Shown: piece after piece, positions 7,571 to 38,065 of the stretch | Layout: each line of letters starts with the position of its first letter | How positions within the stretch are numbered: position 1 is the stretch's first letter | Origin: Bradyrhizobium barranii subsp. barranii | Lineage (GTDB): Bacteria > Pseudomonadota > Alphaproteobacteria > Rhizobiales > Xanthobacteraceae | Assembly (NCBI RefSeq): GCF_017565645.3 | Contig: NZ_CP086136.1 | Coordinates: 3,765,501 to 3,829,500, forward strand | Length of the DNA: 64,000 nt | Direction of reading: 5' to 3' | Notes under the pieces: model-generated | Database searches by the model: none | Told to the model about the DNA's origin: nothing | The model's input: the letters and a program-made list of their open reading frames with translations, nothing else | Program-made: the position numbers and the translations under genes

Positions 7571-7620
7571 AGCGTCTTGTTTTGCTGGCGATTGCGAGTG
7601 CGTTCGTGTAGCTCTGCGAT

Positions 7621-11089: not shown

Positions 11090-12636
11090 GCCACGGCCCG
11101 CTTTTCGGCTTCGCGTGCGGCCTTCCAGTTCCAGGCCAGAAGTTCGTGAAGCTGGTTGGTCTTCGTGGCGCCGCTCACCATGCGATCGAGAACGTCGACG
11201 AGATACGCCTCGGGGTCGAGGCCATTCAATTTCGCTGTGTTAAGAAGCGAAGCGAGTATCGCCCAGGTCTCGCCCCCGCCTTCGTCACCACTGAACAACG
11301 AGTTCTTTTTTCCGATCGCAATTGGCCTGATCGATCGTTCGACCGTGTTGGTGTCCGGCTCGAGCCGCCCGTCATCCAGGAACGTCGTCAGGCCCTGCCA
11401 GCGTTCGAGCATGTAGTCGATCGCCTTGATGAGCGTCGAGCGGCGGGAGATCCCGTCCTTCACCGCGATCAGACGGGCCCTCAACGCCTCCATCAGCGGC
11501 TTCGTCTCGGCCTGTCGCGTCGCGCGGCGTTCCCCAGCATCGAGACCGCGGATCCTCTCCTCGATCGCGTAGACGGCCGCAATGCGCTCGATGACCTCCG
11601 CGGCGAAGGGTGAGTTCGTCGTCTTGTGCACCCTCACGAAGTTGCGGCGCGCGTGAACGAGACAATACGCCAGCTGGATCTGGCCCGACATCATCGCATC
11701 GCCCGCCAGCGAGGCGTAGGCGGCATAGCCGTCGACTTGCAGCACGCCTTCGAAGCCGGCTAACTGCGCCACGATCTCCTTTTTGCCGCGACCACCTGCG
11801 AACACGTAGGCGACCGCCGGCGGCGCCGGCCCCTTCCACGCCCGATCGTCCGTCGCGTGCGCCCAGAACTGGCAGATCCTCGTGCGGCCGCGTCCCGGAT
11901 CGAGCACTGGCATCGGCGTCTCGTCGCAGAACAGCCGCTCGAAGCCGTGCATAGTCTTCAGTTGCAGATCGTAGAGGCCCCTGACCAGCCACGCCGCGCT
12001 CCCCATCCAGCGCGCCAGCGTCTGACGGTCGACGACGACACCCTGACCCGCCAGGATCTGCGTCTGGCGATAGAGCGTCGATTGCCAGGCATATTTGGCC
12101 GCGGCGATATGCGCGATCAGCGCCGTCGTTGCCATGCCGCCCTCGACGAGCCGCGCCGGTGCCGGGGCCTGGACAATCGGGCCCTCACAGGAGCGGCAGG
12201 CGTATTTTGGACGGATCGTGCGGAGCACACGCAGCCACGCGGGAACCCGATCGAGCGCTTCGCTGCTCTCCTCGCCGATCCGATGCATCTGACCCGTGCA
12301 GCACGGGCACAGCGTGGACGCCGGCTCGATCACCCGCTCGACCCGAGGCAGATGCGCCGGCAGCGCGCCGATGTTGCGCTTCGCTTTGCGCCGCTCCGGC
12401 CGCGGCGCGTCCGGTTTGTCGTCATTGGCCGGGAGCTGTGAGCCGGCGGTCCGTTCCAGATCAAACGCGATCTGTTCGGCGCAGACGATCGCCGCGCGCT
12501 CCGATCGTGCGCCGAAGATCAGGCTCTTCAACGTGGCGATCTCTGCGCGCAGATCATCGTTCTCGCCTTCGAAAGCCAGCACCATCTCGGCAAGAGCCGC
12601 AGGGTCAGAGGGGAGATCTTCGGGGCGAAGCGCCAT
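11086..12636 (-). CDS. tnpC: IS66 TnpC DDE transposase (copy 2)
   Basis: 516 aa, the same product as the transposase at 7621-9171: zinc-finger cysteines CPCCTG and CRSCEG, catalytic blocks FCDETPMPVLDPG, LQVDGYAAYASLAG and NTVERSIRPIAIGKKN, and an intact C-terminus. No frameshift or stop is seen, so this copy should be able to mobilise both elements. It lies 50 bp after tnpB. Confidence 0.95.
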   Translation of the reverse strand: MALRPEDLPSDPAALAEMVLAFEGENDDLRAEIATLKSLIFGARSERAAIVCAEQIAFDLERTAGSQLPANDDKPDAPRPERRKAKRNIGALPAHLPRVERVIEPASTLCPCCTGQMHRIGEESSEALDRVPAWLRVLRTIRPKYACRSCEGPIVQAPAPARLVEGGMATTALIAHIAAAKYAWQSTLYRQTQILAGQGVVVDRQTLARWMGSAAWLVRGLYDLQLKTMHGFERLFCDETPMPVLDPGRGRTRICQFWAHATDDRAWKGPAPPAVAYVFAGGRGKKEIVAQLAGFEGVLQVDGYAAYASLAGDAMMSGQIQLAYCLVHARRNFVRVHKTTNSPFAAEVIERIAAVYAIEERIRGLDAGERRATRQAETKPLMEALRARLIAVKDGISRRSTLIKAIDYMLERWQGLTTFLDDGRLEPDTNTVERSIRPIAIGKKNSLFSGDEGGGETWAILASLLNTAKLNGLDPEAYLVDVLDRMVSGATKTNQLHELLAWNWKAAREAEKRAVA

Positions 12637-12686
12637 ATCGCAGAGCTACACGAACGCACTCGCAATCGCCAGCAAAACAAGACGCT

Positions 12687-13043
12687 TCAGGCAACCTTCG
12701 TCGGCCGCTTCGTCACCTTCGGGACCACACGCGACCACTCCGCAAGACCTTCAATCAGCATCGCCAGTTGCGCCCCCGTCACCGGCATCGTACCCTCGCG
12801 AACAGGTGGCCAGGCAAAGCCCCCATTCTCCAGCCACTTCGTCGCTAGAACCATTCCCGAGCCGTCAAAAACCAGTAGCTTCAAACGATCCGATCGCTTC
12901 GATCGGAAGACATAAACGTCACCGCTGTAGGGCTTGCCGCCTAATCCCTCCGCTACCAGCGCGACAAGGCCATGAACGCCTTTACGAAAGTCAATCGGCT
13001 GCGTCGCGACGAACACACGGACCATTGGACCGAAAGAGATCAT
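12687..13043 (-). CDS. tnpB: IS66 TnpB accessory protein (copy 2)
   Basis: 118 aa, the same product as the protein at 7214-7570, with VFVATQPIDFRKGVHGL and VYVFRSKRSDRLKLLVFD. It overlaps tnpA by four bases and is intact. It is needed in known IS66 elements for full transposition, with no catalytic motif of its own. Confidence 0.95.
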   Translation of the reverse strand: MISFGPMVRVFVATQPIDFRKGVHGLVALVAEGLGGKPYSGDVYVFRSKRSDRLKLLVFDGSGMVLATKWLENGGFAWPPVREGTMPVTGAQLAMLIEGLAEWSRVVPKVTKRPTKVA

Positions 13044-13462
13044 CGCGTCGATCTCACCGCCGCCAGCACGCGCTCCAGCGTCGCGGCGTCGACGCCGACG
13101 GGCACGCGCACCGTCGCGCCCGCGATCATCACCTCGATCCGCTCGGCCGGATCCGTCAGAACATGCGCCTTATCGATCGCGTTCGGCTGCGCCTCGACGG
13201 CGGCCTCGAGCCTGACTTGCACGAACTGCGGCGCTTCGCTCGACGCGAGCCGCGCCTGGCGCCGCCACACACTGAGCAGTCCCCGGTTCACCCCGTTGCG
13301 TCGAGCCACCTCGGAAATGCTCGTCTCCGGATCGGCACTCTCGGCCACGATCCGCGCCTTCTCCGCATCGCTCCAACTGCGCCGTCGCCTCTCCCCTGTG
13401 ATCACCTCGATCCGCTGATAGGAGGCGGCATCATGCCCGTCTTGATGTCTGTCTTGATGCAT
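13040..13462 (-). CDS. tnpA: IS66 TnpA/InsA accessory protein (copy 2)
   Basis: 140 aa, the same product as the protein at 6795-7217: helix-turn-helix RRSWSDAEKARIVAE with SEVARRNGVNRGLLSVWR, and the TVRVPVGVDAATLERVL tail. It is the first gene of the inverted element, 89 bp in from the 13551 end. Intact. Confidence 0.92.
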   Translation of the reverse strand: MHQDRHQDGHDAASYQRIEVITGERRRRSWSDAEKARIVAESADPETSISEVARRNGVNRGLLSVWRRQARLASSEAPQFVQVRLEAAVEAQPNAIDKAHVLTDPAERIEVMIAGATVRVPVGVDAATLERVLAAVRSTR

Positions 13463-14020: not shown

Positions 14021-17000
14021 TTGGCTTACACGTTCAACGGAGTTGTTTATCCCGACGCCACCACTACCGGTGTGCCGCCAGGGGTAACCCTCAATCCCTA
14101 TAATGGGGACATTACCATCAACACACCGGGAACGGTCATCTCAGGCCTCAAGATCACCGGCACGGTTTATATCAACGCCGACAATGTCACGATCAAGGAC
14201 TGCAGCATCGCGTCCACCGGCTACAACGTGGTCAATATCAAGAGCGGAGTGTCGGGTGCGGTAGTTGAAAACTGCGAAATCAATGGCACCGGCAACGGAC
14301 CGCAAGGCCAGACAGGCATTGGTGGCCAGGGAACGTTCGCCAATAACAACATCTACAACGTTGAAAATGGCATCAACGTTGAGGGCAGCAATGTCGTCAT
14401 CAAGGGCAACTACATCCACGACCTGAATGCGTCTGGCGGAAGCGCGGGTCACTATGACGGCATCCAGGCCCAGGGCGGATTCAACAACGTTCTTATAAGC
14501 GGGAATACGGTGCTCGGACGTGATACGTCGTGCATCATCATTCAAAATGCCTTCGGGCCGATAGACAACATCAAGGTCGATGGCAACTTGCTTCTCGGGC
14601 AGAACAACGCGGCTGCCACCATCTACGTTGAAGAAAAAGCCGGCTTCTCCGGTCAAATTACCAACGCTCAAGTCACGAACAATGTACTTGGCAAAGGCTT
14701 TTGGTATTGGAGCAGCATCGTAGATACTAATCCGGTGTGGACGAACAACGTTGATTACGCCACCGGCAAGCTCGTAACGACGAACAACACACTCTCAGGG
14801 ACGCCCACGACCCCGCCAACCCCGCCTGCGACTCCAGACGCGCCGGCGATCGCTTCGTTTTCGAACGACACGGGAAAAGTCGGCGACGGCATCACCAGCG
14901 ACACAACGCTCCAGCTGAAGGGTACGGCTGCGGCAAACAGCGCGATCAAGATCTACGACGGCTCGACCCAGATCGGCACGGCGACTGCTAATGCGAGCGG
15001 GAGCTGGGAGTATATTACGGCGGTACTGACCAACGCCCAGCACGTGCTGAAAGCGACGGCCACCAGTGCCAGCGGTCAGACCAGCGCCGCATCCGCTGCG
15101 CTCACGGTAACGGTCGATAATGTTGCGCCGACTGCCCCGGTGCTGAAAAGCAACACGGTTGTCGAGACGAACAAGGTACAGTTGTCCGGCACCGCCGAGG
15201 CGGGCAGCGCCATCAACGTCTATGATGGGGCGAACCTGGTCGGTACGGCCACGACGGGAGCGAATGGTAGCTGGAGCATCACCACCAGTGCCCTGTCGAC
15301 CGGATCTCACACCCTGACGGCGAAGGCCACGGACGCCGCCGGCAACGTCAGTGCTGCATCGCAGTCGGCAAATCCGGTGATCGGCGGGGCGACGACGCCA
15401 CCGCCGGCTACGCCGACGATCGTCTCCTTCTCGAATGACAGCGGCAAGGCCGGGGACAACGTCACCAACGACAACACGCTGACACTGAAGGGCACAGGCG
15501 CGGCCAACGCCACCATCACGGTGTTCGACGGCAACACTCAGGTCGGGAGCGTCAAAGCCGACGCCAGTGGCAATTGGAGCCTGACCACCGCGGCGCTGAA
15601 GGACGGAGCCCACAGTTTCACGGCCACGGCTTCGACCAGCAGCACTGCTGCTGCTGCAGCAGCGGCAACCGCAAGTCCAACGTCTGCGGTGCTTGCCGTC
15701 ACGATCGATACCACGGCGCCGACCGCGCCGGTGTTGAAGGCGAACTCCGTTGTCGATACCAACCACGTGCTGTTGTCCGGCACCGCCGAGGCGGGCAGCT
15801 CCATCACGGTGTATGATGGATCGACTCTGGTCGGGACCGGTACGGCGGGGACAAATGGAAGCTGGAGCATCACCACCAACAGCCTGTCGAACGGTACCCA
15901 TACACTTACTGCAACAGCGACGGATGTTGCAGGCAATGCAAGTGCCGCCTCGCAATCAGTTAAGCCGGTGATCAGCACCCCGACACCGCCGTCTCCCACG
16001 GCGCCTAAGATTGCCTCCTTCTCGAACGACAGCGGGACGGTCGGCGACAACATCACCAACGACAACACGCTGACACTGAAAGGCACGGCTGTGGCCAATG
16101 CCACTGTCAAGGTGTTCGACGGCACGACCCAGGTCGGAAGCATCAAGGCTGACGGCAATGGCAACTGGAGCGTGACCACGGCGGCGCTAAACGATGGCGA
16201 TCACCACTTCACCGCCACCGGCACCGACGCGTCGGGGAAAGCCAGCGCGGCGTCTGCTGCCCTCGACGTCAAGATCGACACCCATGCGCCGGTCGCGCCG
16301 AGCGTAGGGCTCTACACGCAGGGCGGTTCGGCCGTCAGCGGCACGACCGCGCTCGACGACCTGATCGTCAAGGGGACCGCGGAGGCAAACAGCAAGGTCG
16401 CCATTTTCGATGGCGCCAAGCAGATCGGAACGGCAACCGCCGGCAACAGTGGCAGCTGGAGCTATGACACCGGCCACCTTGACGATGGCAGCCATAGCTT
16501 CACGGCCAAGGCTATTGACGTCGCCGGCAATACCAGCGGCTCTTCTACGGCTAAGGGCGTCACGGTGAGTGGGCACTCGTCGCCGATCGACATCACCGGA
16601 TTCGGCTACTACAGCACGAATGCGTTCATCAAGGGTACGGCGGACGCTTACAGTCAGGTCAAGATTCTTGACGGCAACAAAATCATCGGTACCGTCAAGG
16701 CCGATGGTGACGGCGACTGGACTTACAAGGCGACCGGCTTGTCGGACCAGGTGCATACGTTCAAGGCTCAGGAGGTCAACAGCAGTGGTCAAGTGACCGG
16801 AACGAGCTCGGCGAGTGCAATCCTCGGCTCAAGCAAGGGCAACACGCTGACTGGTACAACCGGTGACGACATCTTCGTCGGCAACGGTCATCCGGATACC
16901 TTCGTATTCGATGCGAATTTCGGTAAGGATGTCATCAAGGACTTCAATTCTTACGGGCGTTCGCACGACACGGTTCAGTTCAGCAAGAGTGCGTTCAGCG

Positions 17001-17131
17001 ACTTTGCGAGCGTTCTTAACCACGCCTCGCAGGTTGGGCAGGACGTTGTCATTGCGAATGGAGATGACTCGCTCACGCTGAAGAACGTCAAGCTCGGTTC
17101 ACTGCAAAGCCACGACTTCCATTTCGCGTAA
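14021..17131 (+). CDS. Large type I-secreted beta-helix / Ig-like repeat / RTX-like exoprotein
   Basis: 1036 aa from a TTG start at 14021, with AAGGAGAG five bases upstream. Residues 1-260 read as a right-handed beta-helix (NNNIYNVENGINVEGSNVV, HYDGIQAQGGFNNVLISGN), as in pectate-lyase-like and carbohydrate-binding proteins. Residues about 270-950 hold seven Ig-like units of two alternating types, one opening with SFSNDSG and one with APTAPVL, each with a YDG...VGT...GSWS core typical of bacterial Ig-like adhesin domains. The C-terminus has one RTX-like nonapeptide (TGTTGDDIFVGNG) and ends in DFHFA, with no cysteine and no N-terminal signal peptide, as expected for a C-terminal type I secretion signal. 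The ABC exporter and fusion protein follow directly. A surface adhesin or polysaccharide-binding/modifying protein is inferred; catalytic activity is not shown. Confidence 0.85.
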   Translation: MAYTFNGVVYPDATTTGVPPGVTLNPYNGDITINTPGTVISGLKITGTVYINADNVTIKDCSIASTGYNVVNIKSGVSGAVVENCEINGTGNGPQGQTGIGGQGTFANNNIYNVENGINVEGSNVVIKGNYIHDLNASGGSAGHYDGIQAQGGFNNVLISGNTVLGRDTSCIIIQNAFGPIDNIKVDGNLLLGQNNAAATIYVEEKAGFSGQITNAQVTNNVLGKGFWYWSSIVDTNPVWTNNVDYATGKLVTTNNTLSGTPTTPPTPPATPDAPAIASFSNDTGKVGDGITSDTTLQLKGTAAANSAIKIYDGSTQIGTATANASGSWEYITAVLTNAQHVLKATATSASGQTSAASAALTVTVDNVAPTAPVLKSNTVVETNKVQLSGTAEAGSAINVYDGANLVGTATTGANGSWSITTSALSTGSHTLTAKATDAAGNVSAASQSANPVIGGATTPPPATPTIVSFSNDSGKAGDNVTNDNTLTLKGTGAANATITVFDGNTQVGSVKADASGNWSLTTAALKDGAHSFTATASTSSTAAAAAAATASPTSAVLAVTIDTTAPTAPVLKANSVVDTNHVLLSGTAEAGSSITVYDGSTLVGTGTAGTNGSWSITTNSLSNGTHTLTATATDVAGNASAASQSVKPVISTPTPPSPTAPKIASFSNDSGTVGDNITNDNTLTLKGTAVANATVKVFDGTTQVGSIKADGNGNWSVTTAALNDGDHHFTATGTDASGKASAASAALDVKIDTHAPVAPSVGLYTQGGSAVSGTTALDDLIVKGTAEANSKVAIFDGAKQIGTATAGNSGSWSYDTGHLDDGSHSFTAKAIDVAGNTSGSSTAKGVTVSGHSSPIDITGFGYYSTNAFIKGTADAYSQVKILDGNKIIGTVKADGDGDWTYKATGLSDQVHTFKAQEVNSSGQVTGTSSASAILGSSKGNTLTGTTGDDIFVGNGHPDTFVFDANFGKDVIKDFNSYGRSHDTVQFSKSAFSDFASVLNHASQVGQDVVIANGDDSLTLKNVKLGSLQSHDFHFA
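14850..16295 (+). repeat. Tandem Ig-like repeat units within the exoprotein gene
   Basis: Three successive A+B double units begin at about 14850, 15418 and 16006, roughly 566-592 bp apart. Each A unit opens with a SFSND(S/T)G coding block and each of the first two B units with APTAPVL; the third B unit is more divergent. The DNA of the A and B units is similar enough between copies to allow recombination that changes repeat number. Confidence 0.75.
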
Positions 17132-17165
17132 GCGAAGGGGCGCCATAAGGCGAAGTACATTCAAT

Positions 17166-17190
17166 ACCGCGGAGCCCTCGGCTCCGCGGT
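17166..17190 (+). terminator. Perfect 11-bp hairpin between exoprotein and exporter genes
   Basis: ACCGCGGAGCC (17166-17176), loop CTC, GGCTCCGCGGT (17180-17190). There is no T-run after it, so it is not a classic full terminator. It lies 34 bp after the exoprotein stop and 21 bp before the ABC transporter start. A role as a partial terminator or mRNA 3'-stabiliser, giving more exoprotein than exporter, is inferred. Confidence 0.65.
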
Positions 17191-17211
17191 GCATGTCAGG
17201 GGACGTGTTCC

Positions 17212-19149
17212 ATGAGCGATCTTGCACGGCGGGGGGATGCGCCCCCGCCGCTGAATATTGATGAGATACAGGTATCGAGATGGGCGATATTTATCGCCGC
17301 CCTCGGGCTTTTGGCAGAGCGGGCGCGATCATCGTCGCGCGCGTTGGGGCAGGGCTCGGTTGAGTTTGTACGAGCGCGGCTCTTTGCCCGCTCCCCCGGC
17401 TCTGCGGATCTCGACGATGAGCCGCAATCCGAGATTTCGGCATTCTTGACTTCGTGCCGTCGGATATTCTGGAGCCTTGCCGTCTTCAGCGGCCTGAGCA
17501 ATCTCTTGATGCTCACCGGCTCGTTCTTCATGCTTCAGGTCTATGACCGGGTGCTGCCCGGTCGCAGCATTCCGACGCTCGTCGCGTTGTTGGTGCTGGC
17601 GATGATGCTTTATCTCTTCCAGAGCGGTCTCGATCTTGTCAGAAGCCGGATCAGTGTTCGGATCGGGCGTTACTTCGATGAGAGGCTCGGGCTTCGTGTG
17701 TTCGACGCAGTCGTGCGCCTGCCGCTCAAGACGCGCGGCGATGGTGACGGCCAGCAGCCATTGCGGGATCTTGACCAGGTTCGCAGCTTCTTGTCCGGGG
17801 GCGGGCCGACTGCGCTGTTCGATTTGCCCTGGATGCCGATCTATCTTGGTATTTGCTTCCTGTTCCATTTTTGGATCGGCGTGACTGCGCTAGTCGGCGC
17901 GCTGGTGCTGGTCGGTATGACAATCCTGACTGAAACGCGAACGCGCGGCCCGGCAAAGGCCGTCTCGCGTCTCGGCGTGACGCGTAGCGCACTCGCGGCG
18001 GAAGGGCGACGAAACGCCGAAGTGCTGCATGCGATGGGAATGAGGCGGCAGGCGGCGTTGCGTTGGCGGGATGTCAACGGAAAGTATCTCTCGGCGCATG
18101 AGCAGGCGAGCGATGTTGCAAGCGGGCTGGGTGGGCTTTCGAAGTTCTTTCGCTCGTTTCTGCAGTCACTTGTGCTTGCGGTCGGAGCGGTCCTCGTCAT
18201 CAATCAGGAAGCGACCGCCGGCATCATCATTGCGGGCTCGATCCTGTCGGCAAGGGCGCTCGCCCCAGTGGAGGTGGCCATTGCGAACTGGAAGGGCTTC
18301 ATTGGAGCCCGACAGTCGGCACATCGGCTCGATCGGTTGCTGAAGCTCCTGCCCGAAGAGGTTGAGCACCTCGGACTCCCCGCGCCCAAAGAGGCGCTCG
18401 TGGTGGAGCAGCTCTATGTCGCGGCCCCCGACTCGGAGAAGGTGATCCTCTCGGACATCTCGTTTCAATTGAAGGGCGGCGAGGCCGTCGGGATTATCGG
18501 GCCCAGCGGATCAGGCAAGTCGACGCTGGTTCGTGCGTTGGTCGGCGTCTGGCCGCGGCTGCGTGGCAAGGTCAAGCTCGACAACGCGACGCTGGAACAG
18601 TGGTCGAGCGATGCGCTGGGCAAGCACATCGGCTATTTGCCGCAGGACGTCGAACTGTTCGACGGCAGCATTGCCGTCAATATCGCGCGCTTCGATGTCC
18701 ACGCAACATCCCAGGCGGTGCTGGAAGCTGCATTTGCGGCCGGCGCGCATGATCTCATACTCGCGCTCCCGGACGGCTATGCCACCAGGATCGGCGAGGG
18801 CGGAATGGCCCTGTCAGCCGGCCAGCGGCAACGCATCGGGCTCGCCCGGGCGCTCTACGGCAATCCTTTCCTGGTCGTGCTCGATGAGCCAACATCGAAC
18901 GTCGACTCCGAAGGTGAAGAGGCGCTCACGGCAGCGATCACGAGCGTTCGCAGTCGTGGCGGCATCGTTGCCGTAATTGCGCACCGGCCAAAGGCCCTCG
19001 AAGGGGTGGACCATGTCCTGGTGATCGGAGAGGGAAGAGTTCAGTCCTTTGGGCCGAAAGAGGAGGTCCTCAAAAAGGTGCTGCGACCGGCAGCTCCGCT
19101 CAGGGTGGTGGCAGACGGACAGGGAGGCGGACGATGGATCGCGAAGTAG
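17212..19149 (+). CDS. Type I secretion ABC transporter/permease (PrtD-like)
   Basis: 645 aa. An N-terminal region rich in charged residues is followed by the transmembrane domain (about 75-350), with ILALLVLAMM-type helices and the LMLTGSFFMLQVYDRVLPGR signature of PrtD/HlyB-type exporters. The nucleotide-binding domain has Walker A GPSGSGKST at 430-438, the signature LSAGQRQRIGLARAL at about 534, and Walker B LVVLDEPTSN at about 553. No peptidase C39 domain is present, which fits substrates without a GG leader. It lies 80 bp after the exoprotein gene and overlaps the fusion-protein gene by 16 bp. It should energise export of the 1036-aa protein through a TolC-like pore encoded elsewhere. 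Confidence 0.93.
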   Translation: MSDLARRGDAPPPLNIDEIQVSRWAIFIAALGLLAERARSSSRALGQGSVEFVRARLFARSPGSADLDDEPQSEISAFLTSCRRIFWSLAVFSGLSNLLMLTGSFFMLQVYDRVLPGRSIPTLVALLVLAMMLYLFQSGLDLVRSRISVRIGRYFDERLGLRVFDAVVRLPLKTRGDGDGQQPLRDLDQVRSFLSGGGPTALFDLPWMPIYLGICFLFHFWIGVTALVGALVLVGMTILTETRTRGPAKAVSRLGVTRSALAAEGRRNAEVLHAMGMRRQAALRWRDVNGKYLSAHEQASDVASGLGGLSKFFRSFLQSLVLAVGAVLVINQEATAGIIIAGSILSARALAPVEVAIANWKGFIGARQSAHRLDRLLKLLPEEVEHLGLPAPKEALVVEQLYVAAPDSEKVILSDISFQLKGGEAVGIIGPSGSGKSTLVRALVGVWPRLRGKVKLDNATLEQWSSDALGKHIGYLPQDVELFDGSIAVNIARFDVHATSQAVLEAAFAAGAHDLILALPDGYATRIGEGGMALSAGQRQRIGLARALYGNPFLVVLDEPTSNVDSEGEEALTAAITSVRSRGGIVAVIAHRPKALEGVDHVLVIGEGRVQSFGPKEEVLKKVLRPAAPLRVVADGQGGGRWIAK

Positions 19150-20450
19150 CAACGCCGGCGCTTCGGTCTATCCAGCGCTACATCATCGTCGGCATGGTCA
19201 TGGTCGGCTTCGTTACTTTTGGTATCGGCGGCTGGGCCGCGACGTCCCAATTGTCGGGCGCCGTGATCGGACAAGGCGTCGTCGTGGTGGACTCGAGCGT
19301 GAAGAAGGTTCAGCACGCCACCGGTGGCATTGTCGGCGAACTGCGTGTCCGCGACGGTGACCGGGTGAAGGCAGGCGACATCTTGATCCGGTTGGACGAG
19401 ACGCAAACGCTTGCGAACGCAACGATCGTCACCAAGAGTTTCGACGAATTGCTCGCGCGTCAGGCGCGCCTCGAAACCGAGCGCGACGGCGCCGAACAGA
19501 TTCTGTTTCCAGCGACCCTGCTCGAACGAGCGAGAGACACCAATCTGGAGGCGGGGCGTGCGATCGCGGCGGAGCGCACATTGTTCGATCTGCGCCGGCA
19601 ATCCCGGAACGGCCAGAAGTCGCAGCTCAAGGAGCGTAAGGCCCAGCTTCAGGATGAAATCAAGGGTTATGTCGGGCAAGCGGAGGCCAAGCAGAAAGAG
19701 GTCGAGTTCATCCGCCAGGAGCTCGAGGGCGTCCGGACGCTCTTCCAAAAGAACCTCGTGCCGATTACACGCTTGACCGCGCTCGAGCGCGACACCGCTC
19801 GGCTGGAAGGTGAGCGGAGCCAGTTGAGCGGCATGATGGCCCAGTCAAAGGGAAAGATAGCTGAGATCGAGCTTCAGATCATCCAGATCGATCAGGACCT
19901 GCGCACCGAGGTCGGCAAGGATCTCATCGAAACGCGCTCCAAGCTTTCCGAGCTCACCGAGCGCAAGACCGCGGCGGTGGATCAGCTCAATCGAATCGAT
20001 ATCCGCGCGCCGCAGTCCGGCCGCGTTCATCAGCTTTCCGTCCACACCGTGGGAGGAGTGATTGCTCCTGGCGAGCAGATCATGCTCATCGTGCCGGATT
20101 CGGATGCCCTCGCGGTTGAAGTCAAGATCGCGCCCCGAGACATCGATCATGTCTATGTCGGCCAAAGCGCGTCGATGCAATTCGCGGCGTTCAACCAGAA
20201 GACGACGCCTGGGGTCGACGGAGAGGTGAGCATGGTGTCGGCGGACCTGACGCAGGAACAGCGCACCGGAGCGAGCTATTACACGGTGCGGATTCTGCTC
20301 AAGGCGGAGGAGCTGGCGAGGCTCGGATCTGCCAAGCTGGTGCCGGGCATGCCGGTCGATGTCTTCATCAAGACGCCGTCGCGAACTGCGTTGTCCTACC
20401 TGATCAAGCCATTACGTGATCAGGCCGGGCGCGCGTTCAAGGAGCAGTGA
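19134..20450 (+). CDS. HlyD-family type I secretion membrane fusion protein (PrtE-like)
   Basis: 438 aa. One N-terminal transmembrane helix (about 16-40, YIIVGMVMVGFVTFGIGGWA) is followed by the barrel-sandwich start GVVVVDSSVKKVQHATGGIV. A long coiled coil lies at about 115-260 (QLKERKAQLQDEIKGYVGQA, KQKEVEFIRQELEGVRTLF), then the second lipoyl half with IRAPQSGRVHQLSVHTVGG and IVPDSDALAVEVKI. The C-terminal GMPVDVFIKTPSRTALSYLI is the standard family ending. It links the inner-membrane ABC protein to an outer-membrane TolC. The ATG at 19134 lies inside the end of the ABC gene, so the two are translationally coupled. Confidence 0.93.
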   Translation: MDREVATPALRSIQRYIIVGMVMVGFVTFGIGGWAATSQLSGAVIGQGVVVVDSSVKKVQHATGGIVGELRVRDGDRVKAGDILIRLDETQTLANATIVTKSFDELLARQARLETERDGAEQILFPATLLERARDTNLEAGRAIAAERTLFDLRRQSRNGQKSQLKERKAQLQDEIKGYVGQAEAKQKEVEFIRQELEGVRTLFQKNLVPITRLTALERDTARLEGERSQLSGMMAQSKGKIAEIELQIIQIDQDLRTEVGKDLIETRSKLSELTERKTAAVDQLNRIDIRAPQSGRVHQLSVHTVGGVIAPGEQIMLIVPDSDALAVEVKIAPRDIDHVYVGQSASMQFAAFNQKTTPGVDGEVSMVSADLTQEQRTGASYYTVRILLKAEELARLGSAKLVPGMPVDVFIKTPSRTALSYLIKPLRDQAGRAFKEQ

Positions 20451-27729: not shown

Positions 27730-29128
27730 GAGCTATGGCGGAATCTGGGTGATGACGGTGTGAGGAAGGCGGCGTATCGAGGCGGGTGACGAGCCTGCCA
27801 GAACCTCTCGAGGAGAGCGATACGCCATGACCGAGACTACCAATGTTCTTGCTTTCCGTCAGCCGTCCGCGGTTGATGATCCACTGACCGATATCGTTCG
27901 TGCCGGCGCGCGGGACCTGCTTGCCAGGGCGATCGAGATCGAGGTTGGCGCGTTTCTGGCCAGCACGGCCAATCTGACGCTGCCCGACGGTCGAGCGCGC
28001 CTGGTCCGACATGGGCACGGTCCGGTGCGCGAGATTGCGACCGGCATCGGTCCGGTGGAGGTCGCTCGTCCCAAGGTCCGCGACCGCGGAGCGAGCGGGC
28101 CAGGCGACCGCCTCCGCTTCAGTTCGGCAATCCTGCCGCTATGGGCGCGGCGGACGAAGAGCCTGGATGCCTTGATCCCGGTCCTCTATTTGCGCGGCAT
28201 CTCGACCGGCGACTTCCAGGAGGCGCTCTCGGCGCTGCTCGGCAAGGATGCGCCGAACCTGTCGCCTTCGGTGATCGCCGGCCTGAAGGCCGATTGGCAG
28301 GTCGAGTACGAACGCTGGCAGAGACGCGATCTGTCGGCGCGTCGCTATGTCTACATCTGGGCCGATGGCGTGTACCTGCAGGCCCGCATGGAAGATCACA
28401 GCGAATGCATGCTGGTGCTGATTGGCACCACGCCGGAAGGCAAGAAGGAGCTGATCGGCTTCCAGGTCGGCGTGCGCGAGAGCGCGCAGAGCTGGCGCGA
28501 ACTCCTGATCGACCTGCGGCAACGCGGGTTACGGATTGCCCCGCAACTCGCCATCGGCGACGGCGCCCTCGGCTTCTGGAAGGCACTGGACGAGGCCTTT
28601 CCCGGCACGCGGCACCAACGATGCTGGTGCCATAAAGTGAGCAACGTACTCGACAAGGTCGCCAAATCCGTGCAGGGCCCCATGAAGAACGACCTGCGGA
28701 ACATCTATCTGGCCCCACACCGGGCCGAAGCTGAAACCGCGATCGACGTCTTCGTCGAGAAATACCACGTCAAATACGGACGTGCGGTGGAGTGCCTGAT
28801 CAAGGATCGCCATGCGCTGCTCGCCTTCTTCGACTTCCCTGCTGAGCACTGGATCCACCTACGCAGCTCGAACCCGATCGAGAGCGTCTTCGCCACGGTG
28901 CGCCACCGAACGGTGCGGACCAAGGGATCGCTGTCGCAACAAACTGCGAAGCTGATGGTGTTCAAGCTCATCGACGCCGCATCGAAGACCTGGCGGCGAT
29001 TGAAGAGCACGAACCAGTTGCCGAAAGTCATCGCCGGTGTAAAGTTCATCGACGGAATCGAAGTCATTCCGAACACTGAAAGCCACGCCGCCTGATCAGG
29101 CCGCGTCACCCAAAATCAGCCATAGCTC
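27730..29128 (+). mobile_element. IS256-family insertion sequence, copy 1 (1399 bp)
   Basis: The left end begins GAGCTATGGCGGAATCTGGG and the right end is its imperfect inverse (...CAAAATCAGCCATAGCTC). The 9-bp direct repeat CGCACGCGA lies at 27721-27729 and 29129-29137, which fits IS256 insertion (8-9 bp). One transposase gene is carried. A second copy with the same product lies at 34543-35941 in the same orientation. Confidence 0.95.
27827..29095 (+). CDS. IS256-family transposase (Mutator type)
   Basis: 422 aa, near the usual 400. The DDE core shows YIWADGVYLQARMED (first Asp), LAIGDGALGFWKALDEAFPG (second Asp) and SSNPIESVFATVRHRT (Glu), with RHQRCWCHKVSNVLDKVAKS, the C/D(2)H-type Mutator signature, between them. 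The N-terminal half (DDPLTDIVRAGARDLLARAI) is the usual IS256 start. No frameshift is seen. Its product is the same as that of the copy at 34640-35908. Confidence 0.96.
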   Translation: MTETTNVLAFRQPSAVDDPLTDIVRAGARDLLARAIEIEVGAFLASTANLTLPDGRARLVRHGHGPVREIATGIGPVEVARPKVRDRGASGPGDRLRFSSAILPLWARRTKSLDALIPVLYLRGISTGDFQEALSALLGKDAPNLSPSVIAGLKADWQVEYERWQRRDLSARRYVYIWADGVYLQARMEDHSECMLVLIGTTPEGKKELIGFQVGVRESAQSWRELLIDLRQRGLRIAPQLAIGDGALGFWKALDEAFPGTRHQRCWCHKVSNVLDKVAKSVQGPMKNDLRNIYLAPHRAEAETAIDVFVEKYHVKYGRAVECLIKDRHALLAFFDFPAEHWIHLRSSNPIESVFATVRHRTVRTKGSLSQQTAKLMVFKLIDAASKTWRRLKSTNQLPKVIAGVKFIDGIEVIPNTESHAA

Positions 29129-29137
29129 CGCACGCGA

Positions 29138-29620: not shown

Positions 29621-30578
29621 TCAATTGGCGACTTCTGCTTCTTGAGTGTCTTGCCGGCTGCCACTATTAGCGCGTCGTGTTGCCCGGTATCGGCCGCGTG
29701 ATAAGTCGTGCTGTCGATAGAATAGCTTCGAGAAGGCCGCAGACGTCTCGTAACCGACCCGGCTTGCAATCCGCGCGATGGGCTCGTCATTCGTCTCCAG
29801 CAGAAATGCGGCTTCCGCCATCCGGCGTTCGATGACGTACTGGTGCACGGATTGGCCGACGAGCCTAGTAAAGCGTTCCGAAAATGCCGAGCGGCCAAGC
29901 CCCGCGCGGCGGCCGAGGTCGTTCAAGGTCCAAGGCCCCTCCGGGCTCTCATGGTGAGTTTGAGTACCGGCCCGATGTGCGGGTCGGATATGGCCCCGAT
30001 CCAGCCGCCTTGCCCGGGACTGAGAGATGCGATCCAGTGTCGGAGTACTTCGACAAAGAGCACTTCCGTTAGTCGCGAAAGCGCAACGCGTTGGCCAGGC
30101 CGCTCAAGCGCGGACTCGCTGACCATGCGGCGCAGGACTGCTTCGAGCCAGCCACTGTCCGCCCTCGGCTTCAGCAAGAGCACGCGCGGAAGCAGCTCCA
30201 GCACACTCCCGATATTGGCCGCGACACGGTGAAACTGCCGCAGATCATGGTCGAGGACGGCTTCGCACGACTGCCCTGACGAATGACACCGAATCGCGAT
30301 GAAGCTCGATCAATATCAATAATCCGCAAAGGCTTGGCCCGGCGATCTGAATAGAACACATGGGGCTCTTCACGTGTGATGACGACAAAATCGCCCTCGG
30401 TCATCTTGATCTCTCGGCCTTTGCCGAGCGCTAGGGTTGCTGAGCCCCGACTGAGATAGTGAAATAGGGCATAGGGGCCCGCAGGCAACTCAAGATGCCA
30501 GGGATGGCCAAGCTCGAAATGAAATAGCAGTGTCCCGCCGAGGCGAACGCGATCAAGTACTTGGGCGAGGATGTCCAT
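29621..30578 (-). pseudogene. Broken AraC-family transcription regulator (cupin + HTH)
   Basis: The N-terminal cupin part starts at the ATG at 30578 (MDILAQVLDRVRLGG), with FELGHPWHLELPAGPYALFH and EGDFVVITREEPHVFY. The frame then shifts near 30210 to VLRRMVSESALERPGQRVAL and RLTEVLFVEVLRHWIAS. A second shift near 29945 leads to the AraC DNA-binding tail LNDLGRRAGLGRSAFSERF and IARIASRVGYETSAAFSKLF. All pieces are in order and match a single AraC_6-type regulator, so two frameshifts have inactivated it. It would have sensed a small molecule and regulated a neighbouring gene no longer apparent. Confidence 0.8.
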
Positions 30579-30795
30579 GCGCGGAGGTACACACGCGGAT
30601 GATCGCATACAATGCTTGGAAGGCATCGCGGGGCATCGGACTGGCCACGACCGGGATTTTGATCCGACATCAAGAAGAGTGCCTGCAGGAGAGAGCGCAA
30701 CGGTGGGCTTCACCGCTTTGTTGCAGACCACGATGAATTGGGGACAGATTGTCAACGTTCATTCCCGTTGTCTCGGGGGCGACCGTCTTTTCTTG

Positions 30796-31566
30796 TCATG
30801 CCTCGATCTCGACAACCAAGGTGCAATCGAAAGCCGGGTTCTCTTTGCCGTAGCCATGCGGATTGGCGATGATGCGTGTCTGTCCGACTCGATAATCGAA
30901 CGAGTTGTGGACATGGCCGTGAACCCAGAGGGCCGGCTGATAGGCTTCGATCAGCTCCGACAAATCGGAGACAAAGGCGGCCGTCACCCAGTCATCGCGA
31001 TAAATCGGAACCACTGAATTTCGATGCACCGCGTGGTGCGTTACCACGACGGTCGGCCCCGGGAACAGCGAGCCCAGGGCCTCTTCAATAAAGGAGCGCG
31101 AGCGTTGATGCAGCAGCTCGGCCTCCTGCGGCCGGAAACGCAGCCACGGTTTTTTCAGCCAACCGATGCGACGGTGATCGTTCATGGCGGCTGCGCAAGT
31201 CTGCATGACCGGGATCTGCCTGTTGTCACCAAAAAGGCGATAATCCGTCCACAAGGTTGCGCCCACGAATCGGGCGCCCCCCAGTGCAACTTCGGCATCC
31301 TCAAGGAGATGAACGTTAAACGAAGGCGCCAGTGCACGCGCTTCCTCCAGCTCGGGCGGAAGGAAGCGGCGATAATGTTCGTGATTTCCCATCACCATAA
31401 CAATCGGGATGGCCAATGGCACGATCTGGCGCAGCCGTTCGAAGGCGCGTCGTGCGCCTTCGCAGGTGTCGCCGGCGACCACGACGACATCGATGCCCTC
31501 CGCAAGAACAATGGGCTTGATAGGGAGGACATCGGCATGCAGATCGGAGAAAATCTGGATCCGCAT
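30796..31566 (-). CDS. Calcineurin-like metallophosphoesterase
   Basis: 256 aa from the ATG at 31566 with a strong GGAGGAG site six bases upstream. All five metal-binding motifs are intact: SDLHAD (DxH, residue 7), VVVAGDTCEG (GD), MVMGNHEHY (GNHE), VVVTHHAVH (H) and WVHGHVHNSFDY (GHxH). This predicts a dinuclear-metal phosphodiesterase or phosphatase; the substrate (nucleic acid, cyclic nucleotide, dinucleotide or protein) cannot be read. It is the last gene of a four-gene leftward operon with a GIY-YIG/DUF4357 protein, starting two bases after the upstream stop. The start at 31689 given by the longest frame would intrude into that gene. Confidence 0.87.
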   Translation of the reverse strand: MRIQIFSDLHADVLPIKPIVLAEGIDVVVVAGDTCEGARRAFERLRQIVPLAIPIVMVMGNHEHYRRFLPPELEEARALAPSFNVHLLEDAEVALGGARFVGATLWTDYRLFGDNRQIPVMQTCAAAMNDHRRIGWLKKPWLRFRPQEAELLHQRSRSFIEEALGSLFPGPTVVVTHHAVHRNSVVPIYRDDWVTAAFVSDLSELIEAYQPALWVHGHVHNSFDYRVGQTRIIANPHGYGKENPAFDCTLVVEIEA

Positions 31567-31568
31567 GA

Positions 31569-32093
31569 TTACTCCTCCCCGGGACAGAATGCAGCGGCAA
31601 GAGCCGCTTCGCTTGCGGCAAACTGTTCGCGGTTCATTGGGAAGGCTTTGTGGCGGTCGAGCCAGGCAAGGCCCAGTTCCTCGGCGCAAGGATCACCCCA
31701 CTGGCAGCGGCCAAGAACGTGCGACAGAACCGGCACCGAGGCAGGATCGCCTGCAAGCGCGCAAGACAGAAGAGCCGACATGACGATGTCGATCTGCAGC
31801 GTCACCACGCGCAGCGGTATCAACGAAAGCGCCATACCGATGGCGGCAGCGGCATCGCCCGCCAACGCAGCGGCGCCTTCCATGCCGCCTCCCATGACGG
31901 CAAGCCCTTCGAGCGCGGCGGTAACTTGGAGATGCTCTGCGCCGCCCAGTAGATGCGGGGGCAATAGCCGCCACCACACCAGCGGGTGCGCGTCTTCAGG
32001 GCTGTAAGACTCAGGCGCTTCAGTGGGGCGTCCGGCCTCACCACCTTGTGCACTGAGCGGCTGTTCGAATTCCTGCGAGTACTTAGAGGACAT
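31569..32093 (-). CDS. Hypothetical protein of GIY-YIG/phosphoesterase operon
   Basis: 174 aa with AGGAGGG upstream of the ATG at 32093. The N-terminus (about 1-45) is acidic and polar. The middle (60-135) is rich in Ala, Gly, Leu and Met with long hydrophobic runs (VMGGGMEGAAALAGDAAAAI, LSLIPLRVVTLQIDIVMSAL), perhaps two or three membrane or packed helices. The C-terminus is soluble (GDPCAEELGLAWLDRHKAFP). I recognise no family. It is tightly packed between the GIY-YIG gene (13-bp gap) and the phosphoesterase gene (2-bp gap), so it should be made with them. Confidence 0.75.
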   Translation of the reverse strand: MSSKYSQEFEQPLSAQGGEAGRPTEAPESYSPEDAHPLVWWRLLPPHLLGGAEHLQVTAALEGLAVMGGGMEGAAALAGDAAAAIGMALSLIPLRVVTLQIDIVMSALLSCALAGDPASVPVLSHVLGRCQWGDPCAEELGLAWLDRHKAFPMNREQFAASEAALAAAFCPGEE

Positions 32094-32106
32094 ATGCCTT
32101 ACCCTC

Positions 32107-33054
32107 CTAAGCGTCGATCAGGATGGTGTGGGGGTGGCGTACCGGCTGCCACACGCGGACGCCGATGTGCGCGCCGGTCACCACCTTGGCGGCAATGGCT
32201 GCCGACGGGAACCAGACGTTTGCGATCAGGCGAGATCGATCGCCAACACCATCGATATCGACCAGCACCTTCTTGTTTCGCAATTCCTTACGACGATCGG
32301 TAATGATCTTGTGCGCGCTCGGATTGACGACGTTGCGAACTTCGGACCCTGCGGTCACGATGAAACCGCGCTCAGGATGCGGATAACCGCGGGCATAGAT
32401 CCCTGTATAGAGCAGTTCACGCTCGCTACTGTTTGCGGGATCGACGCGGACATCGATCTGCATGGGGTCGCCATCCTCGGGGCCGATCGGATCAACCTCG
32501 ACCTCGGGAGCAAGCATCGCCGAGTGCTGGTTGTCGAAGTTCGAATCGAGCGCACGGCAGCCGGCGTCGAACAGGAAGACGCGGGCGTCCGTGACAATGC
32601 GCTCCAACTCGGCGCGCTTTTCCTCCGGCACCGCCGGGATCTGCGGGTCGCGCAAATTGGTGACGACCACATAGTTCATCGACTGCGCGATTTCCCAGAG
32701 GCGATACTGAAGGTAAAGGACCGGCAGCTTGTCCAGCCACGGATCGGGGTAGCCGACGATCACGTAGACCTCGCGAGCAAAGTTCTTGGTCGGATCGTCG
32801 AGGTGGTCGATAACTCGCGAGAACCCGTTCTTGGTCTCACCCACGTAAACCGTGTTGTGGTTGGCCAGAAGATATCCGGCGGCGCCAACGGCACGGTCGA
32901 GCGCGATGCGGGAAACCTGCGGCATCGGGCAAGCCCACACCGCGACGCGGCTGGCATCATTGTAAATGCGGCGCAAGCCGCTGGTATCGCCCTCGGGGCG
33001 ATAGATCTTGGATGTGCAAGCCGCAAGCGCCGGCAATTGGAAAATGGACGACAT
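32107..33054 (-). CDS. GIY-YIG nuclease-like protein with DUF4357 domain
   Basis: 315 aa from the ATG at 33054 (AGAGGG seven bases upstream). Residues 58-101 fit the GIY-YIG core of the DUF4357-linked group: AAGYLLANHNTVYVGETKNG, then SRVIDH with the likely catalytic Arg80 and His84, then AREVYVIVG. Residues 111-170 (LYLQYRLWEIAQSMNYVVV, EEKRAELERIVTDARVFL) match the helical linker of that group. Residues 216-305 fit DUF4357 (YARGYPHPERGFIVTAGSEV, NVWFPSAAIAAKVVTG, GVRVWQ). Such proteins are often annotated near restriction and defence genes, but the role is unknown. The second gene of the operon, 205 bp after the 51-aa ORF. Confidence 0.8.
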   Translation of the reverse strand: MSSIFQLPALAACTSKIYRPEGDTSGLRRIYNDASRVAVWACPMPQVSRIALDRAVGAAGYLLANHNTVYVGETKNGFSRVIDHLDDPTKNFAREVYVIVGYPDPWLDKLPVLYLQYRLWEIAQSMNYVVVTNLRDPQIPAVPEEKRAELERIVTDARVFLFDAGCRALDSNFDNQHSAMLAPEVEVDPIGPEDGDPMQIDVRVDPANSSERELLYTGIYARGYPHPERGFIVTAGSEVRNVVNPSAHKIITDRRKELRNKKVLVDIDGVGDRSRLIANVWFPSAAIAAKVVTGAHIGVRVWQPVRHPHTILIDA

Positions 33055-33259
33055 ATTGGATCCCTCTATGTGTTTGAGAGATCGCGAGGCCAATGATCGC
33101 GTCGTTCGCCGAGCTGCCGGTTCCGGAAAGCCCAACCGTGACAGGTCAGGACCGGTCTCATCCGTCGCGAAGGCGGATCAGATCGGAGAGCAAGGCGTCG
33201 TCGCGATCGTGTATTGCGCCGCAACAACGGCGCAATGCAGCGAACCTCGCGATCGAGGC

Positions 33260-33415
33260 CTAGGCGTTGTGCGGTCGGCCGAACACAGCCACTGCGACGG
33301 CAGCGAAGCAAAGCTCCACAGCAAGCGAGTGGATCGCCTCGGTCACGGGCGCGCTAGCGTTGAGCAACAGGAGGGGCGGGGGCAGCGAATCGGAGTTATA
33401 AGCAGACTTAGCCAT
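33260..33415 (-). CDS. Small 51-aa protein, first gene of the GIY-YIG operon
   Basis: Starts at the ATG at 33415 with AAGGAAG six bases upstream. Sequence character: MAKSAYNSDSLPPPLLLLNA, then a helical/hydrophobic part (AIHSLAVELCFAAVAVAVFG) ending RPHNA. Probably one membrane or amphipathic helix. Good ribosome-binding site and a shared direction with the three following genes argue that it is real. No family recognised. It could be a toxin-like or regulatory peptide, but nothing shows this. Confidence 0.6.
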   Translation of the reverse strand: MAKSAYNSDSLPPPLLLLNASAPVTEAIHSLAVELCFAAVAVAVFGRPHNA

Positions 33416-34533
33416 GATCGACTTCCTTATCAGTCGGTGGTGGTCAGGCCGTCGCTTCGTATTTCGACTACTTGGCGGCGGCCGCTTTCTCTCGCAGCTT
33501 TGCGAGGCAACCGAGGTATGGTCCGATCCGCATCGTGTCTACGGTTGGCCGAATATTTCTCCAGTCAGGATGGTTAACGAGCTATTGTACGGACATCTCG
33601 ATTGAGCCGGCCGGCGATTTCGACCTGATCTGCGGAAGGAGTTCAGCGCGAAGCGGTAGCCCGCGGGGTGTATCGGCTGCGGACAACATCTTCGATCCGC
33701 CGGGCCCACGGTACCCCGCCAGCGTCTGCGGCCGGCGGGATACTTAGGTTTGGCCGAGCCTTTCCCGTTTCGCGAATGTTGCGTGGAATTGGCTGACTGG
33801 GCTCACTGCCAGATCGATAGACATCTTGAACCGCTGGCGAGAGATCTGGCCCGTTGCAATCTCTTAACCCTGCATGAGGGCTAAGCTTTCGGGAGTCATT
33901 CGTCGTGCAACGAGTTTTTGACGTTTTGCAACGTGTCCTTGGGGAAATCCGGTGGCCGGCCCATCGCATGACGCGTCCCAAGAACACGTTGCAAAACGTC
34001 TAAGACACGTTTTTTAACGTGCCATGTAATGGGGGGCCGAGTTCAAAAGTGCGCCGCCTCACCTCCCGCCGACGTCCACCAAAAGGGATGTGCCGAAGGG
34101 GGAAATTTCAAGCACGAGAAGCGGGCCTCTGCGCTCCACTTGTAACTGGATCTCGGGTGCTGGGGCGCCCTCACTTTGCTTTACTAAATTATCGGGGCGC
34201 CCGTCGAATTGCTTTCAGCAATTCGCCCGTCCGGCGCACCGCGCTGCCTGTCGCCATTCGCACTGGAACAGCCTTTTTAGGGAGACGGGCCCGGCTGGGA
34301 GGCGCTTTGATGTACTGCCGGGGCCGCTCCGCCAGCCGAGAGACAAGCTCAGCATCATTTAAGTGACGCTTGGCGTCCCAAGTTCCTGCCAGTCAGTCTG
34401 CGGAGTTCAGGGTGGTAAATGACGACGGCGGTAAGTCCGCAATAAGAGAGGGCCGCCTTGCGGGGCCAGTCTAATGTCATCAACGCCGATCAGCGGTCCG
34501 TACAAATACCGATAGACAGCGACGCCCCACTCT
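33416..34533. other. Long region without a recognisable gene
   Basis: About 1.1 kb upstream of the GIY-YIG operon and before IS256 copy 2. Open frames are present but lack ribosome-binding sites and motifs. It holds the ACGT-type palindromes (33921-34020) and presumably the operon's promoter. The rest looks like decayed DNA. Confidence 0.45.
33921..34020. repeat. Cluster of three ACGT-N6-ACGT palindromes with a 23-bp inverted repeat
   Basis: ACGTTTTGCAACGT (33921-33934), ACGTTGCAAAACGT (33986-33999) and ACGTTTTTTAACGT (34007-34020). The first two are arms of a larger inverted repeat, 33921-33943 and 33977-33999, matching at 22 of 23 positions with 33 bp between. This could be a multi-site operator, a recombination site or a long hairpin. 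No known site is recognised. Confidence 0.7.
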
Positions 34534-34542
34534 CATTAAGAG

Positions 34543-35941
34543 GAGCTATGGCGGAATCTGGGTGATGACGGTGTGAGGAAGGCGGCGTATCGAGGCGGGT
34601 GACGAGCCTGCCAGAACCTCTCGAGGAGAGCGATACGCCATGACCGAGACTACCAATGTTCTTGCTTTCCGTCAGCCGTCCGCGGTTGATGATCCACTGA
34701 CCGATATCGTTCGTGCCGGCGCGCGGGACCTGCTTGCCAGGGCGATCGAGATCGAGGTTGGCGCGTTTCTGGCCAGCACGGCCAATCTGACGCTGCCCGA
34801 CGGTCGAGCGCGCCTGGTCCGACATGGGCACGGTCCGGTGCGCGAGATTGCGACCGGCATCGGTCCGGTGGAGGTCGCTCGTCCCAAGGTCCGCGACCGC
34901 GGAGCGAGCGGGCCAGGCGACCGCCTCCGCTTCAGTTCGGCAATCCTGCCGCTATGGGCGCGGCGGACGAAGAGCCTGGATGCCTTGATCCCGGTCCTCT
35001 ATTTGCGCGGCATCTCGACCGGCGACTTCCAGGAGGCGCTCTCGGCGCTGCTCGGCAAGGATGCGCCGAACCTGTCGCCTTCGGTGATCGCCGGCCTGAA
35101 GGCCGATTGGCAGGTCGAGTACGAACGCTGGCAGAGACGCGATCTGTCGGCGCGTCGCTATGTCTACATCTGGGCCGATGGCGTGTACCTGCAGGCCCGC
35201 ATGGAAGATCACAGCGAATGCATGCTGGTGCTGATTGGCACCACGCCGGAAGGCAAGAAGGAGCTGATCGGCTTCCAGGTCGGCGTGCGCGAGAGCGCGC
35301 AGAGCTGGCGCGAACTCCTGATCGACCTGCGGCAACGCGGGTTACGGATTGCCCCGCAACTCGCCATCGGCGACGGCGCCCTCGGCTTCTGGAAGGCACT
35401 GGACGAGGCCTTTCCCGGCACGCGGCACCAACGATGCTGGTGCCATAAAGTGAGCAACGTACTCGACAAGGTCGCCAAATCCGTGCAGGGCCCCATGAAG
35501 AACGACCTGCGGAACATCTATCTGGCCCCACACCGGGCCGAAGCTGAAACCGCGATCGACGTCTTCGTCGAGAAATACCACGTCAAATACGGACGTGCGG
35601 TGGAGTGCCTGATCAAGGATCGCCATGCGCTGCTCGCCTTCTTCGACTTCCCTGCTGAGCACTGGATCCACCTACGCAGCTCGAACCCGATCGAGAGCGT
35701 CTTCGCCACGGTGCGCCACCGAACGGTGCGGACCAAGGGATCGCTGTCGCAACAAACTGCGAAGCTGATGGTGTTCAAGCTCATCGACGCCGCATCGAAG
35801 ACCTGGCGGCGATTGAAGAGCACGAACCAGTTGCCGAAAGTCATCGCCGGTGTAAAGTTCATCGACGGAATCGAAGTCATTCCGAACACTGAAAGCCACG
35901 CCGCCTGATCAGGCCGCGTCACCCAAAATCAGCCATAGCTC
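34543..35941 (+). mobile_element. IS256-family insertion sequence, copy 2 (1399 bp)
   Basis: Same ends and length as copy 1, flanked by a different 9-bp direct repeat, CATTAAGAG, at 34534-34542 and 35942-35950. The separate duplications show independent insertions, so the 5.4-kb segment between the copies is not a simple composite transposon. The direct orientation would allow deletion of that segment by recombination. Confidence 0.95.
34640..35908 (+). CDS. IS256-family transposase (copy 2)
   Basis: 422 aa, the same product as the protein at 27827-29095, with YIWADGVYLQARMED, LAIGDGALGFWKALDEAF and SSNPIESVFATVRHRT supplying the DDE residues. Intact. It can be expected to act on both copies in this window. 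Confidence 0.96.
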   Translation: MTETTNVLAFRQPSAVDDPLTDIVRAGARDLLARAIEIEVGAFLASTANLTLPDGRARLVRHGHGPVREIATGIGPVEVARPKVRDRGASGPGDRLRFSSAILPLWARRTKSLDALIPVLYLRGISTGDFQEALSALLGKDAPNLSPSVIAGLKADWQVEYERWQRRDLSARRYVYIWADGVYLQARMEDHSECMLVLIGTTPEGKKELIGFQVGVRESAQSWRELLIDLRQRGLRIAPQLAIGDGALGFWKALDEAFPGTRHQRCWCHKVSNVLDKVAKSVQGPMKNDLRNIYLAPHRAEAETAIDVFVEKYHVKYGRAVECLIKDRHALLAFFDFPAEHWIHLRSSNPIESVFATVRHRTVRTKGSLSQQTAKLMVFKLIDAASKTWRRLKSTNQLPKVIAGVKFIDGIEVIPNTESHAA

Positions 35942-35950
35942 CATTAAGAG

Positions 35951-38035: not shown

Positions 38036-38065
38036 GGATACATGATCCGTGACGGCATTCGGTAA
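38036..38065 (+). pseudogene. Possible last codons of an OmpR-type response regulator
   Basis: In frame, NGYMIRDGIR followed by TAA, ending 14 bp inside the kinase gene. OmpR/PhoB regulators usually end in RG.GY.(L/I)R, and regulator-kinase pairs typically overlap like this. No regulator body lies upstream, so these codons may be the 3' end left by an island inserted in the regulator gene. This is inference from ten residues. Confidence 0.3.

Follow-up and report, generated by a model that had tools for sequence, protein, structure and literature searches.

The window, the whole 64,000-nucleotide stretch of DNA that was analysed from contig C1 of an 11.4-Mb Bradyrhizobium genome, quite possibly carries an incomplete copy of a modular and patchily distributed defence-type operon, a reading drawn from sequence in which a leader, a GIY-YIG gene, S174 and a metallophosphoesterase (MPE) gene are present and an AAA+ gene is missing. 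Across related loci the gene set recurs, the GIY-YIG protein has lost its catalytic glutamate (and in a nested sub-clade its catalytic arginine too), and a covarying RNA leader takes in the Shine-Dalgarno sequence and the start codon of a small open reading frame. The original prediction of an uncharacterised defence-type or nucleic-acid-processing module is supported by conserved co-occurrence and by a match to PDC-S14, a phage-defence candidate of PADLOC that is itself untested. Set against it are a nuclease predicted to be dead, the rarity of the MPE and the lack of an AAA+ gene in the window.

Gene content and setting of the window copy

All genes of the operon are on the minus strand. Four same-strand open reading frames with good ribosome-binding sites had been proposed, and all four were confirmed: a 51-aa ORF (33415-33260, AAGGAAG), a 315-aa GIY-YIG/DUF4357-type protein (33054-32107, AGAGGG), the 174-aa protein S174 (32093-31569, AGGAGGG) and a 256-aa calcineurin-like MPE (31566-30796, GGAGGAG). 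The tight packing that was also proposed holds for the three protein genes, which are separated by 13 nt (GIY-YIG to S174) and 2 nt (S174 to MPE), but not for the 51-aa ORF, which lies 205 nt from the GIY-YIG gene.

Neighbourhoods of related loci were surveyed for same-strand open frames within 8 kb that covered at least half of a family profile; gene calls in fetched loci were composition-based picks, checked by profiles on open frames. The counts cover 57 clade loci and exclude ten taken as duplicates of genomes already counted (L011-L017, L021, L024, L028), L027 (taken as a G120 copy), L029 (a fragment), L078 (no gene call) and unfetched genus matches, for example G018, G209, G205 and fragments. 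An AAA+ gene was found in 47 of the 57 loci (33 Lon-type, 14 FtsH/M41-type) and S174 in 33. An MPE was present in 12, a DnaQ-type exonuclease in 12 (one of these 7.6 kb upstream) and DUF2130 in nine, so that 32 loci carry at least one of these three. An intact AAA+ gene is missing from ten loci: the window, which has none within 8 kb, L022, L068, L071, L079, L083, L093, L094, L149 (at a contig end) and L164 (truncated). In the distant f95 family of the order, a GIY-YIG gene of the glutamine type accompanied a Lon-type gene in all six loci that reach far enough. The same genome as the window also carries two paralogous loci, L009, where a Lon-type gene is accompanied by DUF2130 and a Gabija-like pair, and L010, where FtsH/M41, DnaQ and integrase genes are found. 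Judged from these sequences, related loci keep the gene set and its co-occurrence is beyond chance. This bears out the predicted recurrence of the operon's genes, but not the pairing of nuclease and phosphoesterase that was placed at its centre, as the steady partner is the AAA+ gene and the MPE is found at just 12 loci.

Some neighbouring features were observed in passing. At L009 the GajA/GajB-like pair (L009:3-2680; PADLOC 3.7e-40 and 1.3e-52) is convergent with the paralogous operon, and at L071 a GajA-like protein (L071:11696-13654, plus strand, 4.5e-49) is encoded about 1.9 kb downstream of the GIY-YIG gene. The GIY match at L078 (G026:C1:8863685-8864599) lies within an open frame of 791 aa, which may be a fusion or no more than an open frame.

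Two of the protein assignments were upheld. S174 was described as belonging to no known family, and none matched in Pfam, NCBIfam or PADLOC; its structure model (pLDDT 78.7) has eight helices, and its relatives adjoin the GIY-YIG gene in related loci, which makes it a possible adaptor. The MPE was said to carry all five metal motifs of a calcineurin-like phosphoesterase. It matched PF00149 (5.7e-12, 46.9 bits against a threshold of 21.5), and SDLH, GD, GNHE, HH and GH[VI]H were common to six aligned MPEs.

A GIY match was present in 44 of 265 genus genomes, and a 900-kb conjugative plasmid carries one copy; a phage collection had no match. The same-species genome G011 had no GIY match and shares the right flank of the window from position 38036 on (95%). 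Two identical 1.4-kb insertion sequences with 24-nt imperfect inverted repeats, which we take to be IS256-type, lie on the plus strand upstream of the operon (34543..35942) and on its downstream side (27730..29129). A composite transposon was ruled out because each copy is flanked by its own 8-bp target duplication, with no single outer one, and the separate duplications point to independent insertions either side of the operon.

A rival view, which could hold alongside the best explanation of the complete loci, makes the window copy a decaying remnant, inactive today; it is somewhat doubtful. Such decay would fit the missing AAA+ gene, the insertion sequences around the operon and the adjoining gene at 29621-30755 (minus strand), which is apparently split over three frames and which we presume, by eye, to encode an AraC-like regulator. 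However, the leader is intact, as is each of the three protein genes with its ribosome-binding site, and L071, the nearest relative in the tree, likewise has GIY-YIG, S174 and MPE genes and no AAA+ gene.

Other features of the window were recorded as well. G011 has an 82% match to window positions 29684-30580, located elsewhere. Two inverted sets of four ORFs each, equal in length and start, are found at 6795-9818 (plus strand) and 10439-13462 (minus strand) and are presumably IS66-like. At 14021-20450 (plus strand) a 1036-aa ORF is followed by 645-aa and 438-aa ORFs, the latter two resembling, by eye, what we take to be a type I secretion pair. An inverted repeat of 35 nt (89% complementary, 33-nt loop) is present at 33909-34011, and its weak match to Rfam mir-431 is surely chance.

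The leader RNA and its distribution

The 51-aa ORF, originally predicted as a peptide gene, is better read mainly as a translated margin of a structured leader RNA (33368..33501, minus strand; 98.9 bits against covariance model R1), and is probably not a conserved protein. The leader consists of helices P1 and P2, a CCA/UGG helix, P3 around the Shine-Dalgarno sequence and P4 within the first codons of the small ORF. In 2.36 Mb of strand sequence (64 loci) the encoded motif MAxxxYxxDS was found 33 times, always in front of a same-strand GIY-YIG gene. This motif looks protein-like, but ATGGCT, the first and third base of TAT, and GATTCG were invariant at the DNA level in 34 of 34 sequences, third codon positions included, and RNAalifold found covarying helices at P1, P3 and P4. 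Invariant third codon positions together with covarying hairpins suggest that the motif reflects RNA. Beyond codon 12, differences were spread evenly over the codon positions (196/200/182 in 25 overlapping close pairs), and with its start inside the conserved leader and no codon-position bias past that point the peptide was rejected as a conserved protein.

In a MAFFT alignment of 44 loci that was made independently of the structure, 93.8% of cells were paired and nine of 16 pairs changed on both sides. The covariation score was 0.251; shuffles gave 0.114, with 0 of 500 as high, and sliding gave 0.085 or less. Further pair types showed no excess (14 compared to 15.6 in shuffles of the same 44 loci), and single-sequence folding of the window leader gave no unusual stability (z -0.95; others -0.83, -2.79 and -2.12). 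At eight loci (L063, L065, L066, L068, L075, L076, L079, L081) the small ORF is 86-96 aa long with half of a GIY-YIG motif (Y..Y-G..R..H); it is possibly a coding remnant or a mini-protein there, which counts against a pure-RNA reading.

Model R1 was built from 33 loci, the window included. In 70 loci it matched strongly 44 times, and 11 of these matches lie outside the model's own set, including those at seven of seven f95 loci (E 1e-15 to 1e-8). Of the 57 clade loci, 45 carry the leader: all 33 of the Lon type, three of 14 of the FtsH type (L025, L026, L072) and nine of ten without an intact AAA+ gene. No match at E 1 or better was obtained in the Glu-type loci L154-L163 or in the FtsH-type loci L010, L023, L074, L080, L082, L085, L088, L096-L099 and L164. 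At six FtsH-type loci (L010, L023, L074, L082, L085, L088) a protein of about 200 aa (cluster 8), for which Pfam gave no match, is encoded in the leader's place beside the GIY/FtsH gene. The window's own genome has two leader matches, one in the window and the other, truncated, at L009 (E 1.5e-4).

Across the genus, 35 matches were found in 31 of 265 genomes, and 34 of them lay 231-489 nt upstream of a same-strand GIY match, a comparison that used the first 49 of 61 GIY places; the 35th is near a contig end. Twenty random 19-kb genus regions gave a best E of 0.018. An order-wide search then found 65 places in 54 of 397 genomes. Forty of these were fetched, and a further ten were already covered among the genus and f95 loci. 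An AAA+ match lay within 5 kb downstream at 15 of the 40 places, including six with a GIY match (L258, L261, L269, L273, L274, L279), two with an S174-like gene (L265, L282) and one with an MPE (L279), and was absent from 25. Four of the 40 places (L268, L285, L287, L289) have less than 3 kb of downstream sequence. By eye, the matches at L281 and L288 look like chance. At L260, L262 and L283 the leader precedes what we take by eye to be transporter-like operons, and at some other places presumably phage-like genes, in other families of the order; these labels, like the AlpA-like one, were given by eye. An exact pattern search also placed the leader in an 81-kb viral contig, L228 (931-1041, plus strand), before a 94-aa ORF, and none of the operon genes was found in the 2 kb available downstream; it may be either a decoy or ordinary regulation. 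The idea that the leader is a dedicated component of this operon fitted the genus survey and was dropped after L228 and the order survey. The leader is probably an order-wide regulatory element whose role can be tested by itself.

Rfam matches on the leader, below gathering scores, were obtained at six of 16 scanned loci. SymR (RF01809) matched on the opposite strand at L228 (E 1.1e-6), L187 (1.5e-5) and L247 (0.0047), and R1162-like antisense RNA (RF00043) matched on the same strand at L240, L229, L228, L231 and the window. The window match had E 0.083 in 6 kb or 0.0041 in 301 bases and reached 28.3 of the 55 bits required; the best scores at other loci were 48.3 of 61 bits for SymR and 38.9 of 55 for the R1162-like RNA. 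The simplest reading of these similarities is that the operon's leader belongs to one broad class with SymR and R1162.

A SymR-like leader would also suit an addiction or mobile-element maintenance module with type I antitoxin-like control and no anti-phage role, as would its presence in a viral contig and at phage-like loci, the integrase at L010, and the relaxase and MobA/MobL genes near some loci. This explanation is unlikely, however, given that no recognisable toxin is present and that those outer relatives which were checked belong to loci of the restriction or BREX type. Pfam identified BrxL and PglZ near the outer Glu-type relative L160, type I restriction-modification genes lie beside outer relatives in two Methylocystis plasmid records, and further outer relatives are presumably in similar loci, judged by eye or annotation.

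The GIY-YIG protein and its active site

The GIY-YIG/DUF4357 label given to the 315-aa protein holds in part. The protein matched the PADLOC PDC-S14 profile nearly end to end (residues 16-297, E 9.3e-31, a profile with no curated score shown for comparison) and matched E-type relatives in a profile-profile comparison (E 5e-22). The GIY-YIG domains of UvrC and I-TevI were among the best structural matches of its model, and the protein models as a GIY-YIG fold. However, DUF4357 (PF14267) scored below its cut-off (E 0.014, 15.8 bits against a gathering score of 38.4) and a Pfam search gave no GIY-YIG match.

Catalysis by GIY-YIG enzymes needs an arginine in the centre of the domain and a glutamate in its C-terminal part, according to the available text of PMC1564403. 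The Arg80 and His84 predicted to be catalytic are both present in the window protein, but Gln116 occupies the position of the metal-binding glutamate. Glutamine is found at this position in 47 of 57 aligned clade members. No inner-clade row out of 52 combines Arg80 with Glu116, whereas each of the 27 outer rows, which represent 23 distinct genes, does so; the glutamate is retained by five basal members of the clade, four of these with the arginine as well, and Arg80 has also been lost in a nested sub-clade. Loss of catalytic residues in homologues had been named as a finding that would count against the original prediction, and it applies to the glutamate, while the arginine and histidine are kept. 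With Gln116 in place of the glutamate, loss of catalytic activity is predicted for the window protein.

Both tyrosines, Gly72, Arg80 and His84 are retained in 47 of the 57 and remain conserved among the members with glutamine, which exceeds the needs of a fully retired site. This retention, together with the occurrence of DUF4357 in both GmrSD homologues and GIY-YIG proteins in the published text available, would fit a modification-dependent nuclease that tolerates glutamine at its metal site and is still active, but such activity is very improbable, as replacing the glutamate with alanine abolishes defence by SNIPE and active-site mutants of CMoRE have no nuclease activity (both from partial text of the sources), and the nested sub-clade has lost Arg80 too.

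Proposed function and relation to known systems

A defence-type module with a non-cutting GIY-YIG protein can be turned into a scheme of action, with an anti-phage function inferred from sequence. By analogy to SymE/SymR, the leader would keep the operon silent at the level of translation, and infection or DNA damage would lift this block. The GIY-YIG/DUF4357 protein would then recognise foreign or modified nucleic acid without cutting it, a Lon-type or FtsH-type AAA+ protein would remodel the target or the complex, and exchangeable enzymes (MPE, DnaQ exonuclease, DUF2130) would do the damage, with S174 as a putative helical adaptor. The window copy might be reduced, might borrow an AAA+ protein from one of the two paralogous loci, or might be decaying. 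Taken as a whole, an immune system with a retired GIY-YIG sensor, an AAA+ machine, swappable nuclease or phosphoesterase effectors and an R1162/SymR-like leader that silences translation in the logic of type I toxin-antitoxin systems is a tentative and rather doubtful proposal. A comparison of neighbourhoods gave no separation of the flanks from random regions: at E 1e-15, 131 flanking proteins matched 43 PADLOC families and 131 random proteins matched 42 (25 of each among the matches listed).

The analysis places a PDC-S14-type candidate gene within a defined operon and predicts how its products share the work, and the clade offers a case of a nuclease domain seemingly turned sensor. An operon of the defence type is also linked to a class of leader RNA with sub-threshold Rfam matches at most.

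Comparison with known systems shows both similarities and disagreements. The window protein resembles PDC-S14 in its profile match and in its layout of GIY-YIG and DUF4357-like regions; however, aligned outer members of PDC-S14 keep the glutamate and sit in type I restriction-modification or BREX-like contexts, whereas the window clade has glutamine and an AAA+ gene as partner. SNIPE and CMoRE also join a GIY-YIG domain to a recognition domain, although the available text describes them as active single-gene nucleases with the glutamate, unlike the multi-gene operon with glutamine found here. The Lon-type partner aligns with the AAA+ domain in known structures of Lon (E 2e-31) but stops after that domain, and the FtsH-type partner matches both AAA and Peptidase_M41; the window copy differs in having neither. 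Finally, the leader shares helices and an ...ACCAC...GGAG...AUGGCU core with SymE/SymR and R1162 in alignments. However, the operon genes downstream of it are not symE or plasmid replication genes, no Rfam gathering score was reached, and the leader is known here from its sequence, with the antisense RNA predicted.
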